A stretch of 64,000 bases of DNA from Synechococcus sp. A10-1-5-1 (GTDB taxonomy: Bacteria; Cyanobacteriota; Cyanobacteriia; PCC-6307; Cyanobiaceae): contig NZ_CP096032.1 of NCBI RefSeq assembly GCF_023115425.1, forward strand, positions 1,798,001 to 1,862,000, given 5' to 3'. The notes under the pieces were generated by a model that worked only from the letters and a program-made list of their open reading frames with translations, was not told the DNA's origin and did not search any database. Of the stretch, positions 16,233 through 46,411 are shown one piece after another. Within the stretch, counting starts at the first letter, position 1. Each line of letters begins with the position of its first letter. The translations under genes were made by a program, and so were the position numbers.

Positions 16233-17147
16233 TTGCTTACACCTCCGCTGGTTCAGGCCTTTGACCACGTGCCTGTGCTGGCAGCACAGGTGATGGCCAG
16301 TTTCGCTGCGCTGGAACCCCTTTTGCAGGAGCGGGGTGGTGGTCTGCTGATCGATTGCACCCTCGGTGGCGGCGGCCACAGCGCCCTGTTGCTCGAGGCC
16401 CATCCCAGCCTGCGCTTGGTGGGGTTGGACCAGGACCCCACCGCCCGGCAGGCGGCGGCGGAACGCCTGGCGCCCTTTGGTGATCGGGTCAGGGTCGTCG
16501 CCACCAACTTCGCGGACTACCAGCCCGAGGAGCCGGCCCTGGCGGTCATGGCGGATTTAGGCGTCAGCAGCCCCCAGTTGGATGTGGCGGAGCGGGGCTT
16601 CAGTTTTCGCCAGGACGGTCCCCTGGACATGCGGATGAATCCCCAGGCCGGGGAGACCGCGGCGGAGCTGATCGAGCGACTGGATGAGACGGAGCTGGCG
16701 GACCTGATCTACGCCTATGGCGAGGAGCGGCTCTCCCGGCGCATTGCCCGCAAGATCAAGGAGCACCTGAGCGAACAGGGTCCCTTTGCTGGGACCGATG
16801 CCCTGGCCTACTTGGTGGCGGGTTGCTATGCCCCCAAGGCGCGCCGGGGACGGATCCACCCGGCGACGCGCACCTTTCAGGCCCTGCGGATTGCTGTGAA
16901 CGATGAACTGGGGGTCCTGGATCGCCTGTTGCAGCAGGCCCCCGATTGGTTAAGCCCCGGCGGGCTGATGGGGGTGATCAGCTTTCACTCCCTCGAGGAT
17001 CGCCGCGTCAAGACCGCCTTCAGCAGCGATGAGCGGCTGCAACGGGTGACCCGAAAACCAGAAACGGCTGGAGAGGAGGAGCAGAGCTCCAACCCTCGCA
17101 GCCGTTCCGCCAAATGGCGCGTCGCTAGGCGGCGCGATCTGAGTTGA
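16233..17147 (+). CDS. rsmH: 16S rRNA (cytosine(1402)-N4)-methyltransferase
   Basis: A 304-residue SAM-dependent methyltransferase (formerly MraW) acting on C1402 in the ribosomal decoding centre. Motifs are FDHVPVL at the start, the SAM loop [29 protein letters not shown] and [19 protein letters not shown]. The start is TTG at 16233; the conserved HVPVL begins about 12 residues later and no ATG fits. It is divergent from ndhH. Its stop abuts the stop of the following minus-strand gene. No mur or fts division cluster follows it here, unlike in many bacteria. Confidence 0.95.
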
Positions 17148-17918
17148 TCAGTTGTTGCTCATGATCCCGGTGTGGTCCTGGCTGCCGAACAGCTGGCGAT
17201 AGGCCGCGGTGCTGACGCAGATCAGCACAGGAGCCAGCACCAGCAGGCCACCGGCGTTGAACAGGTAGGCGACGCCGGCGACGACGCTTTCGACGATCAC
17301 GAACCAGAGCACGGTCCACCAGCTGGGGTTCACCCCATCGATGCCGGCCTGGAGTGTTTCCACAGGACGCTTGGCGCCATAGAGCGACATCGGCACCAGG
17401 AACTGCTGGGTGACCACCAGCCAGATCTTGAAGATGGCGAAGGCGATCACCGGGATCCAGAACAGGACGGTGTTGACTTTGCCGAGACCAAAGCCGATGC
17501 CCCAGGCCACGGCGCCCACGACGGCCAGCACGATCACCAGCAGCAGGCTGGAGCCGAAGAGGCGGCCGCTGGCATCGCTATCCCAGCGGGTGAAGCTGCT
17601 GAAGCTGGGCTTCTGGCCTTCGAGGCTGGTCCAGGCGCCGCGGGTCAGACCAACGGCGGCCCAGAGGGCAACGATGATGTAGCCGATGATTCCCACCACC
17701 AGGCCGATCTTGGTGGCGACGGGGTGCACCAGGGCCGGTGCACCAAGGGCCAGGTGAAGCAGGCCGCTGGTGATCAGGCCGATGAAGGGGGCCATGATCA
17801 CCAGCACCAGCACCTGGAAGAGCACAAAGGGCCAGGGGGCGCGGCAGAAGGCCTGCCAGCCATCCTCGATCGCTCGCAGGATGGAGAGCTTGTTGGTGCC
17901 TGGGGTGGGCAATCCCAT
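17148..17918 (-). CDS. Multi-pass membrane protein, unknown
   Basis: A 256-residue protein with about six hydrophobic helices. It opens with NKLSILRAIEDGWQAF, a pre-helix amphipathic stretch, and contains FLVPMSLYGAKRPVETLQAG between helices. The arrangement is reminiscent of DUF975-like proteins, and of the protein at 13339-14022, but no family is assigned. ATG at 17918; a long upstream in-frame extension lies inside the neighbouring cysteine desulfurase and is rejected. It could follow that gene in one transcript (74-bp gap). Confidence 0.7.
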   Translation of the reverse strand: MGLPTPGTNKLSILRAIEDGWQAFCRAPWPFVLFQVLVLVIMAPFIGLITSGLLHLALGAPALVHPVATKIGLVVGIIGYIIVALWAAVGLTRGAWTSLEGQKPSFSSFTRWDSDASGRLFGSSLLLVIVLAVVGAVAWGIGFGLGKVNTVLFWIPVIAFAIFKIWLVVTQQFLVPMSLYGAKRPVETLQAGIDGVNPSWWTVLWFVIVESVVAGVAYLFNAGGLLVLAPVLICVSTAAYRQLFGSQDHTGIMSNN

Positions 17919-42667: not shown

Positions 42668-44298
42668 TCAGCTCAGGACTGGGGCTTGCAGCGGTGCCTG
42701 GCGAATCAATCCAGACCCAGCAGGAGCGGTCAGGGCCTTCATGGCGCTCTCGTTTCTGGCCACCAGCATTTCCATCGAGGCCTTGTAGCTGTCGGTCATC
42801 AAGCGTGGATAGAGGCCAATGCCGATGATCGGCACCAGGAGGCAGCCAATGATGTAGATCTCGCGGGGCTCTGCATCGACCAAGTTGGTGTGGTCCACCA
42901 GCTCCGCTTTCTCTTTGCCATAGAAGATCTCCCGCAGCATCGAGAGCAGGTAGATCGGGGTGAGAGGACCACCCCAATGGCGGCCAGGCCGTCAATGGCG
43001 ACTCGGAAGGGAAGGGTGTAAGCGTCATCCGTTGCGAAACCGACGAAGACCATCAGTTCGCTGACGAAGCCGCTCATGCCCGGCAGGGCCAAGGAGGCGA
43101 GGGAGCAGACCGTCCAAAGCGCAAACATCTTGCGCATTTTTTGTCCGACACCACCCATCTCATCGAGCTGCAGGGTGTGGGTGCGGTCGTAGGTGGCTCC
43201 CACGAGGAAGAACAGTGAGGCGCCGATCAGCCCGTGGCTGATCATCTGAAGCATGGCTCCGCTGGAGCCCAACGCGCTGAAGCTGCCAATGCCAATCAGC
43301 ACAAAGCCCATGTGGCTGATGGAGCTGTAGGCAATTTTTCGTTTCAGGTTCCGTTGGGCGAAGGAGGTCAGGGCGGCGTAAATGATGTTCACCACCCCCA
43401 GCACCACCAGCAGTGGCGCAAAGACCGCGTGCCCATCGGGAAGGATCTGGCAGTTGAAGCGCAGCAGGGCATAGCCACCCATCTTCAAAAGAATCCCGGC
43501 CAGCAGCATGTGCACCGGTGCTGTGGCTTCGCCATGGGCATCGGGTAGCCAGGTGTGCAGAGGCACGATCGGCAGCTTGACGCCGAAGGCGATGAGCAAA
43601 CCCGCATAGGCCAAGAGTTGGAACTTCAGGGGGAAGCTCTTGGCCATCAAGTCGCTGTACTCAAAGCTGGTGGTGTCGCCGTAGAAGGCCATGGCCAGGC
43701 CAGCTAGGAGGATGAACAGGGAGCTGCCAGCGGTGTAGAGGATGAATTTGGTTGCGGCGTATTGCCGTTTTTTCCCGCCCCAGATGGCGATCAACAGATA
43801 GACCGGGATGAGTTCCAGCTCCCAGGCCAGGAAGAACAGCAGCATGTCCTGAACGGCGAAGACGGCGATCTGACCGCCATCCATCGCCAGGAGCAGGAAA
43901 TAGAAGAGCTTCGGCTTAAAACTCACCGGCCAGGCCGCTAGGGCCGCTAGGGCGGTGATGAAGCTGGTGAGCAGGATGAGCGGCATCGAGATGCCGTCGG
44001 CCCCGACCGACCAGGCCAACCCCAGTTCGGGTAGCCAGCTCACCCGCTCGACCAGCTGCAGGTTCGGATCGCTGGGGTCGTATCCCGTCAGATACCCGCC
44101 CACGGTGAGCAGGAAGGTGATCAGGGCAATGCCGAGAGCGAACCAGCGGACCTGCTTCCCATCTCCCTTGTCAGGGATGAAGGGGATGCAGAGGGCGGCT
44201 GCAATCGGGAACAGAATCGAGGCGCTGAGCCACGGGAATGCCGTGCTGCTCGCCTGTTCCGTCGCCACGGCCAGGGTTGAAACGAAGTCCAGGAGCAC
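42668..44298 (-). pseudogene. ndhD: NAD(P)H-quinone oxidoreductase subunit 4 (NdhD1) with 2-bp frameshift
   Basis: Proton-pumping antiporter-like subunit of NDH-1, about 542 residues if intact. Frame one (GTG at 44298) gives normal NdhD through [10 protein letters not shown], then drifts. Normal NdhD resumes one frame over as [18 protein letters not shown] and runs to 42668 ([31 protein letters not shown]). The minus strand reads CTCTCACC where CTCACC restores the frame, so two bases at 42962-42963 look duplicated. This is either a real lesion or an assembly error; no programmed signal is known for ndhD. It follows ndhF on the same strand. Confidence 0.85.
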
Positions 44299-44392: not shown

Positions 44393-46411
44393 CTAGCCCA
44401 GGGCTCCGAAGAGCACTACCAAGGCGATCACACCCCCGAAAACGATCAGCGCATAGAACTGCGCGCGGCCGGTTTCGAAGTATTTGAGACCCTCGCCACT
44501 ACCCAGGGTGACCAGACCGGTGAGGTTGACGACGCCATCCACCACCTTGGAGTCCACCTCGAGCACCGAGCGGGCCAGTTTGCGGCTGCCTTGAACGAAG
44601 AGCTTGTCGTTGATGTCGTCCAGATACCACTTGTTCGCGAGGAAGGCATTGATGCTGGGGAAGCGTCCCGCCACCGCCGTTGCCAGGTCGAGCTTGCGCA
44701 GGGCATAAGCCAAGACCGCCACGCTGATGCCGATCACCGAGATCGCCACTGAGGCGCCGGCTAACGGAAGGAATTCACCCCAGCTGAAGTGCTCAGCCAC
44801 TTCTGCGGCTTCTTGTGGATCCAGCAGGGTGCCAAAGCGGCTGTTCCAGGGCATACCCAAGAGACCAATCAGGACCGAGGGAACTGCCAGGACCGCCAAG
44901 GGCATCGCCATCTGCCATGCGGATTCGTGGGGATGCTCGGCGTGGGCATGGTGCTCACCGTGCTCGTCACTGTGGTCATCGGCGCCCTTACCGGCGGCGG
45001 CCATCAGCTCCGCTTGCATCGCCTTGTCGTTGCCGCGGAACTCCCCTTCAAAGGTCAGGAAGTAGAGGCGGAACATATAGAAGGCAGTCATCCCAGCCGT
45101 CACAAAGCCCGCGGCCCAGAGGATGGGGAAGCTGCCAAAGGCCTGGCCAAGGATCTCGTCCTTGCTCCAGAAACCGGCGAGTGGCGGGATGCCGCTGATG
45201 GCCAGGCAGCCAATGAAGAAGGTGCTGCTGGTGACAGGCATGTATTTGCGGAGGCCACCCATCAAGCGCATGTCCTGCGCCAAGACCGCTTCGTGGCCGA
45301 CAACCTCTTCCATGGCGTGGATCACCGAGCCGGAGCCCAAGAAGAGCATCGCCTTAAAGAAGGCATGGGTCACCAGGTGGAACATGCCCGCCACCGGAGC
45401 GCCACAACCCATGGCCAGCATCATGTAGCCCAGCTGGCTCACGGTGCTGTACGCCAGGCCCTTCTTTAAATCCATCTGGGTGAGGGCGATCGATGCCCCC
45501 AGAAACAGGGTGATCGTTCCGATCACCGCCACCACCACCTGAACCTCAGGGAACGGCACGTAGACGGGTTGAAGCCGGGCCACCAGGAACACGCCCGCAG
45601 CCACCATGGTCGCGGCGTGGATCAGGGCTGAGATGGGGGTTGGACCTTCCATCGCATCGGGCAGCCAGACATGGAGCGGGAACTGGGCCGACTTGGCCAT
45701 CGGTCCCATGAAGACCAGTAGGCAGAGCAGGATCGCGATGCCGTTGGAGACGCTGCCGGCGCTGATCGCTTCTTGCAGGCGAACGCCAATGTCTTCGAAT
45801 CCGAAGCTGCCGGTGGCCCAGAACAGACCGAGGATCCCCAGCAGCAGGCCGAAGTCACCAACCCGGTTCACCACAAAGGCTTTTTGCGCGGCATTGGCAG
45901 CGCCGTCTCGGTCGTACCAGAAGCCAACGAGCAGGTAGGAGCACATGCCCACCAGCTCCCAGAACACATAGATCTGGAGCAGGTTGGGGCTGATCACCAG
46001 ACCCAGCATCGAGCTGCTGAACAGGGCGAGGTAGGTGAAAAAGCGCACATAGCCCTTGTCATGGGCCATGTAGCCATCGGAGTAGATCATCACCAGAACG
46101 GCGATGGTCGTCACCAGCGAGAGCATCACTGCCCCCAGGGCGTCCACCCGGAAGCCCATTTCCAGGGTGAAGGCCCCGGCACTGGCCCAGTCGAATAAGA
46201 CTTCGGTGGTGCCGGCACCGGCCAGCTGTTGGGCGAGGACGGCGTAACTCAAAACTGCCGCCGCACCCACGCAGCTGATCAACAGAAGCGCAACCGGTTT
46301 GCGCAGGCGGTTGACCGTGCGGTTAAAGCTGATCAGTCCCAGGCCCACCAATGCGGCCCCAATCAGCGGGAGCACCGGGATAAGCCAGGCGAGTTCGGCG
46401 GGCGACGGCAT
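44393..46411 (-). CDS. ndhF: NAD(P)H-quinone oxidoreductase subunit 5 (NdhF1)
   Basis: A 672-residue membrane subunit of NDH-1, of the type paired with NdhD1 in respiratory/cyclic complexes. Segments such as YVFWELVGMCSYLLVGFWYDR, PLHVWLPDAMEGPTPISALIH and KKGLAYSTVSQLGYMMLA are typical. A His-rich loop (DDHSDEHGEHHAHAEHPHE) sits between C-terminal helices. ATG at 46411. The ndhF-ndhD order, with rbcR divergent upstream past the nnrU-like gene, suggests a carbon-status-linked cluster. Confidence 0.96.
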   Translation of the reverse strand: MPSPAELAWLIPVLPLIGAALVGLGLISFNRTVNRLRKPVALLLISCVGAAAVLSYAVLAQQLAGAGTTEVLFDWASAGAFTLEMGFRVDALGAVMLSLVTTIAVLVMIYSDGYMAHDKGYVRFFTYLALFSSSMLGLVISPNLLQIYVFWELVGMCSYLLVGFWYDRDGAANAAQKAFVVNRVGDFGLLLGILGLFWATGSFGFEDIGVRLQEAISAGSVSNGIAILLCLLVFMGPMAKSAQFPLHVWLPDAMEGPTPISALIHAATMVAAGVFLVARLQPVYVPFPEVQVVVAVIGTITLFLGASIALTQMDLKKGLAYSTVSQLGYMMLAMGCGAPVAGMFHLVTHAFFKAMLFLGSGSVIHAMEEVVGHEAVLAQDMRLMGGLRKYMPVTSSTFFIGCLAISGIPPLAGFWSKDEILGQAFGSFPILWAAGFVTAGMTAFYMFRLYFLTFEGEFRGNDKAMQAELMAAAGKGADDHSDEHGEHHAHAEHPHESAWQMAMPLAVLAVPSVLIGLLGMPWNSRFGTLLDPQEAAEVAEHFSWGEFLPLAGASVAISVIGISVAVLAYALRKLDLATAVAGRFPSINAFLANKWYLDDINDKLFVQGSRKLARSVLEVDSKVVDGVVNLTGLVTLGSGEGLKYFETGRAQFYALIVFGGVIALVVLFGALG

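Follow-up and report, generated by a model that had tools for sequence, protein, structure and literature searches.

The closest described counterpart of the gene studied here is NdhD1 of the Thermosynechococcus NDH-1L complex (6hum_D). In NDH-1L, NdhD1 is described as being in contact with NdhB, NdhF1, NdhP, and NdhQ; according to the same account, the complex NDH-1L' had not been isolated biochemically (PMC7021789), and it is defined elsewhere as containing NdhD2 and NdhF1 (PMC4786724). For the lesion itself, the nearest parallel is the glcP frameshift of Synechocystis GT-T, taken from an account in which laboratory substrains of PCC 6803 differ by frameshifts (PMC10068330). As in the present case, a gene with no other damage carries a small insertion that is confined to one cultured lineage. 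As described there, the insertion in glcP is a single base and was confirmed by its phenotype, whereas ndhD1, a core gene of NDH-1, appears in the assembly to have gained two bases.

We analyzed a 64,000-nucleotide stretch of the genome of Synechococcus sp. A10-1-5-1 (contig NZ_CP096032.1, positions 1,798,001–1,862,000), hereafter the window, in which ndhD1 adjoins ndhF1. The features of the locus, together with NDH-1 genes found elsewhere in the genome, are summarized in Table 1. The length of ndhD1 is 1,631 nt, i.e., 3 × 543 + 2. Read from the GTG at 44298, the frame stays open for 499 codons, and its stop ends at 42799; the native NdhD residues end with AIGVVL at residue 445, and the foreign tail begins with SPRSTC. 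Beyond the break, the NdhD sequence is picked up one frame over and continues as far as 42668. The NCBIfam model PRK02546 (NAD(P)H-quinone oxidoreductase subunit 4; 533 positions) matches both frames, the first open reading frame (ORF) at positions 4–434 and a downstream 90-aa ORF at positions 440–514, and the first ORF alone scores 861.4 bits, above the cut-off of 827, which identifies the gene as ndhD1. These results agree with the first-pass annotation, which had claimed that a 2-bp frameshift near 42959–42967 splits the gene, with normal NdhD up to GVVL and a continuation one frame over from TPIYLLSML. The coding strand reads GGTCCTCTCACC, and two fewer bases are needed to keep the frame. 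The duplicated TC that had been assigned to 42962–42963 is one of four equivalent placements within the GAGAG at 42962–42966. Over its residues 19–525, an intact relative's NdhD1 (P0001) aligns with 6hum_D (832 bits); in contrast to the Thermosynechococcus protein, the frame of A10-1-5-1 leaves the NdhD sequence after residue 445 of 542, inside the second-last hydrophobic segment (433–451), and the last segment (482–500) lies beyond the break. An uninterrupted NdhD1 frame of about 540 residues is thus absent from this assembly. In a search of the same genome for a further copy of the site, the sole match was ndhD1 itself, and one exact pattern compared with viral contigs as a possible source or carrier gave no matches.

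Table 1. Split ndhD1 locus and other NDH-1 genes of Synechococcus sp. A10-1-5-1 (positions are those of the window unless a locus is named).
Feature	Position	Strand	Evidence
ndhD1, NDH-1L-type NDH-1 subunit 4, split by two extra bases	42668..44298	-	ORFs; NCBIfam PRK02546; best solved relative 6hum_D
Frame actually open: 499 aa, 445 native plus 54 foreign residues	42799..44298	-	ORF list and comparison with relatives
3' part of ndhD1, out of frame: 97 codons plus stop; end of the second-last and whole of the last hydrophobic segment	42668..42961	-	
CTCTC tract (GAGAG on +) containing the extra dinucleotide; exact place ambiguous	42962..42966	-	
GC-rich hairpin GGGGTG-7 nt-CACCCC, loop overlapping the tract; may be a hot spot for slippage or error	42957..42975	-	
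ndhF1, 672 aa, intact, directly upstream of ndhD1, same orientation	44393..46411	-	ORF; Proton_antipo_M, 291.9 bits
Second ndhD, 544 aa, intact	L136 8829-10463	-	NCBIfam PRK12561, 845 bits (cut-off 645)
ndhF4/ndhD4 pair, intact, with ChpX/CupB-like gene	L135 7109-2594	-	
ndhB, intact	L002		

The ndhD1 gene was aligned to 116 loci from the same genus through to Prochlorococcus, of which 107 span the site of the lesion, including two from the same genome (L004 and L007); five pairs are identical in gene sequence, leaving about 100 distinct sequences among the others. The extra bases are present in L004 and L007, and all of the other 105 spanning loci have exactly two bases fewer. Alignment with relatives, proposed earlier as a check, therefore showed the two bases to be private to this genome. 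Of 110 loci, 104 have a single frame running from residue ≤ 60 to residue ≥ 500; the remaining six are L007 and five in which the sequence ends at the edge of a contig or locus (L028, L030, L035, L078, and L114). One of the 104, from an uncultured Synechococcus metagenome-assembled genome (L084), has one stop inside its NdhD1 match. Within the genus, 20 of the 24 other genomes carry a single ndhD1 frame to residue 536 or further, and that of G020 extends to residue 521; in the remaining three (G018, G009, and G022), the gene is cut at a contig edge. The product is intact and 542 residues long in the three nearest relatives (G013, G019, and G021), the length that had been predicted for the repaired protein and that the gene span also gives. 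With intact orthologues in its close relatives, the gene is a candidate for a recent pseudogene.

To date the lesion, the 5' and 3' pieces (the latter being codons 446–542) were read separately and compared with G013, G019, and G021. The dN/dS ratios against these genomes were 0.022, 0.027, and 0.040, respectively, for the 5' part and 0.038, 0.050, and 0.030 for the 3' part, and the synonymous distances were 0.56 (5') and 0.61–0.78 (3'). A10-1-5-1 has two residue changes of its own in the 3' part, at 528 and 540 near the C-terminus. By these measures, the out-of-frame tail is constrained like the rest of the gene, with no sign of decay. The tail has therefore been under selection for nearly all of the time since the split from these relatives, so the lesion is either very recent or not real, as the first reading of the sequence had also concluded from its two otherwise intact halves.

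We consider that the best explanation, with a probability of about 0.52, is a true, recent, and private tandem duplication of two nucleotides in ndhD1 of the sequenced clone, by which NDH-1L would be impaired. The simplest route would be polymerase slippage turning the coding-strand CTC of an otherwise normal gene into CTCTC. NdhD1 would then be cut within its second-last membrane helix and receive a foreign tail, NDH-1L would fail to assemble or to pump normally, and the cell would depend on the second NdhD (in an NDH-1L'-type complex) and on NdhD4/NdhF4. That the extra bases are truly present in the cells, and that NdhD1 function is lost, is slightly more likely than not; the fold of the family suggests that NdhD1 needs its last two helices. 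Because of its contacts with NdhB, NdhF1, NdhP, and NdhQ, the loss of NdhD1 should prevent the formation of normal NDH-1L. The absence of the extra bases from all 105 other loci, the purifying selection on the 3' tail, and a genome assembled in a single contig support a true mutation. In addition, a Synechocystis ndhD1/ndhD2 double mutant is described as having been cultured in BG-11, although it reportedly showed no photoheterotrophic growth with glucose and DCMU (PMC8887894), and CupB complexes are described as unaffected in such a double mutant (PMC5853218). As this double mutant is viable, a loss of ndhD1 could persist in culture. The frameshifts by which cultured substrains of PCC 6803 differ (PMC10068330) also speak for a true mutation. 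On the other side, a neutral loss in nature would not be expected, judging from a gene that is universally intact where relatives' contigs reach across it, and the GC-rich hairpin loop can cause a sequencing or assembly error.

An error of this kind, with the real ndhD1 intact and encoding 542 aa, is the most serious alternative, and we give it somewhat less than an even chance. Whether it arose by mutation or by error, a 2-nt indel such as this one is ordinary in kind. That all 105 of the other loci are intact at this point and that the tail is free of decay would speak for an error, as does the position of the site in a GC-rich hairpin: a GGGGTG/CACCCC stem (42957–42975) encloses a 7-nt loop with which the extra-base tract overlaps. 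Only 0.57% of the positions in the window fall in loops closed by a perfect GC-rich 6-bp stem of this type, a figure computed for a feature noticed after the fact. The hairpin may promote slippage or sequencing error and is proof of neither. The type of lesion argues against an error, since the usual error of long-read and pyrosequencing assemblies is a single-base change in a homopolymer and not a dinucleotide duplication outside one. So does the genome as a whole, which is one contig of 2,404,104 bases and 99.98% complete.

The general quality of the assembly was examined in a survey of frame changes in 822 kb of the 2,404,104 bases and in the syntenic 800 kb each from G021 and G013, in which ORFs intact in two genomes were tested for a frame change in the third. 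The units of the survey are ORFs, including antisense and wrong-frame ones, so that the 389 of A10-1-5-1 are not vetted genes. This three-genome test replaced an earlier comparison with one relative, which had yielded 20 candidates in either direction, most of them start-side and unpolarized. Frame changes were found in 4 of 389 ORFs in A10-1-5-1 (3/165 + 1/224), 9 of 403 in G021 (6/194 + 3/209), and 7 of 420 in G013 (5/198 + 2/222). Among the four in A10-1-5-1, ndhD1 was the only clean internal break, with two long and closely matching pieces, one of 447 aa (96.2%) and one of 98 aa (95.9%), and the other three were start-side matches with pieces of 32, 15, and 69 aa. That so few frame changes occur in 822 kb indicates that the assembly is not generally poor and mildly favors a true mutation; a single local assembly error at ndhD1 would still be compatible with the survey. 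As a point against a true mutation, 14 of the 389 ORFs in A10-1-5-1 contained in-frame stops within the inner 80% of the match, compared with 17 of 403 in G021 and 6 of 420 in G013. In the 14 ORFs of A10-1-5-1, the only genome vetted in this respect, mismatches peaked at codon position 1 in 10 cases, a pattern that marks wrong-frame ORFs, and at position 3 in 4 cases. These four, one of them with a weak peak and including the matches h21|163889-165601 and h21|17055-17831, may be real genes that either contain a stop or start later.

Recoding, in which ribosomal or transcriptional slippage restores some full-length NdhD1, is very improbable. An RNA hairpin at the site and runs of C4 and G4 close to it could assist slippage, but runs of four bases are short, and the sequence contains no classical X XXY YYZ heptamer. 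The shift site is conserved in none of the 105 other loci, and the frame of the relatives is uninterrupted. The hairpin is explained by the coding sequence, since the perfect 6-bp arm occurs without the extra bases in 14 of 106 parsed relatives' sites, and its fold z-score is only −1.85. Our literature search found no report of a programmed frameshift in ndhD and no paper titled on an ndhD frameshift in Synechococcus. The assembly of a functional two-piece NdhD1 from the 499-aa product and a 90-aa product starting at the ATG at 42940 can practically be dismissed: the 3' piece does have its own ATG just past the break, but the first frame's stop lies about 140 nt beyond this ATG, so that no stop–start coupling is seen, the split falls within a hydrophobic segment, and the arrangement is found in none of the 105 other spanning loci.

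If ndhD1 is truly broken in this strain, the consequences depend on the remaining NDH-1 subunits. The search for other ndhD copies, which had also been proposed as a check, revealed an intact second ndhD and ndhD4. In a tree of 29 rows, the second NdhD belonged neither to the NdhD1 clade (8 rows, 100/100) nor to the NdhD3/4-like group (11 rows, 100/100); it grouped with the rows of G028 and G046 (98/89), and the NdhD2-like rows did not form one resolved clade. The tree uses P0001 in place of the broken NdhD1 of A10-1-5-1, omits L272 (which contains a stop) as well as hits lacking a locus, and includes no named NdhD2. From this placement, the second NdhD is a putative NdhD2. The first-pass annotation had proposed that the lesion, if real, would affect both NDH-1L and NDH-1L' unless another ndhD paralogue took over. 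At most the NDH-1L part holds, NDH-1L being defined by NdhD1 and NDH-1L' by NdhD2; because the genome has an intact second NdhD, a loss of NDH-1L' is unsupported.

A10-1-5-1 may tentatively be regarded as a picocyanobacterium, natural or cultured, in which NDH-1L has newly disappeared and which depends on its second NdhD (NDH-1L'-type) and NDH-1MS'-type complexes, although we doubt this somewhat more than we credit it. If true, a spontaneous mutant for NDH-1L that retains an intact second NdhD would be at hand in this strain, and with it a ready-made test of what NDH-1L' does alone, useful because that complex had not been isolated biochemically. If the extra bases are an error, the genome record needs correcting, or the strain will be scored as having no NdhD1.

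A further NdhD-like protein (about 35–40% identity to NdhD1, about 500–580 aa) is present in most of the genus genomes listed, with no entry for A10-1-5-1 or for G013, G019, and G021, which together are the four nearest genomes. This protein may be an NdhD3-like subunit that was lost in the clade of these four. At 2594–7109 of L135 (contig of A10-1-5-1, minus strand), ndhF4, ndhD4, and a gene that we take from its translation to be CupB/ChpX-like stand in a row beside genes that, likewise from their translations, are presumably carboxysome-like; the nearby start of the contig begins with what we take to be a dnaA-like sequence.
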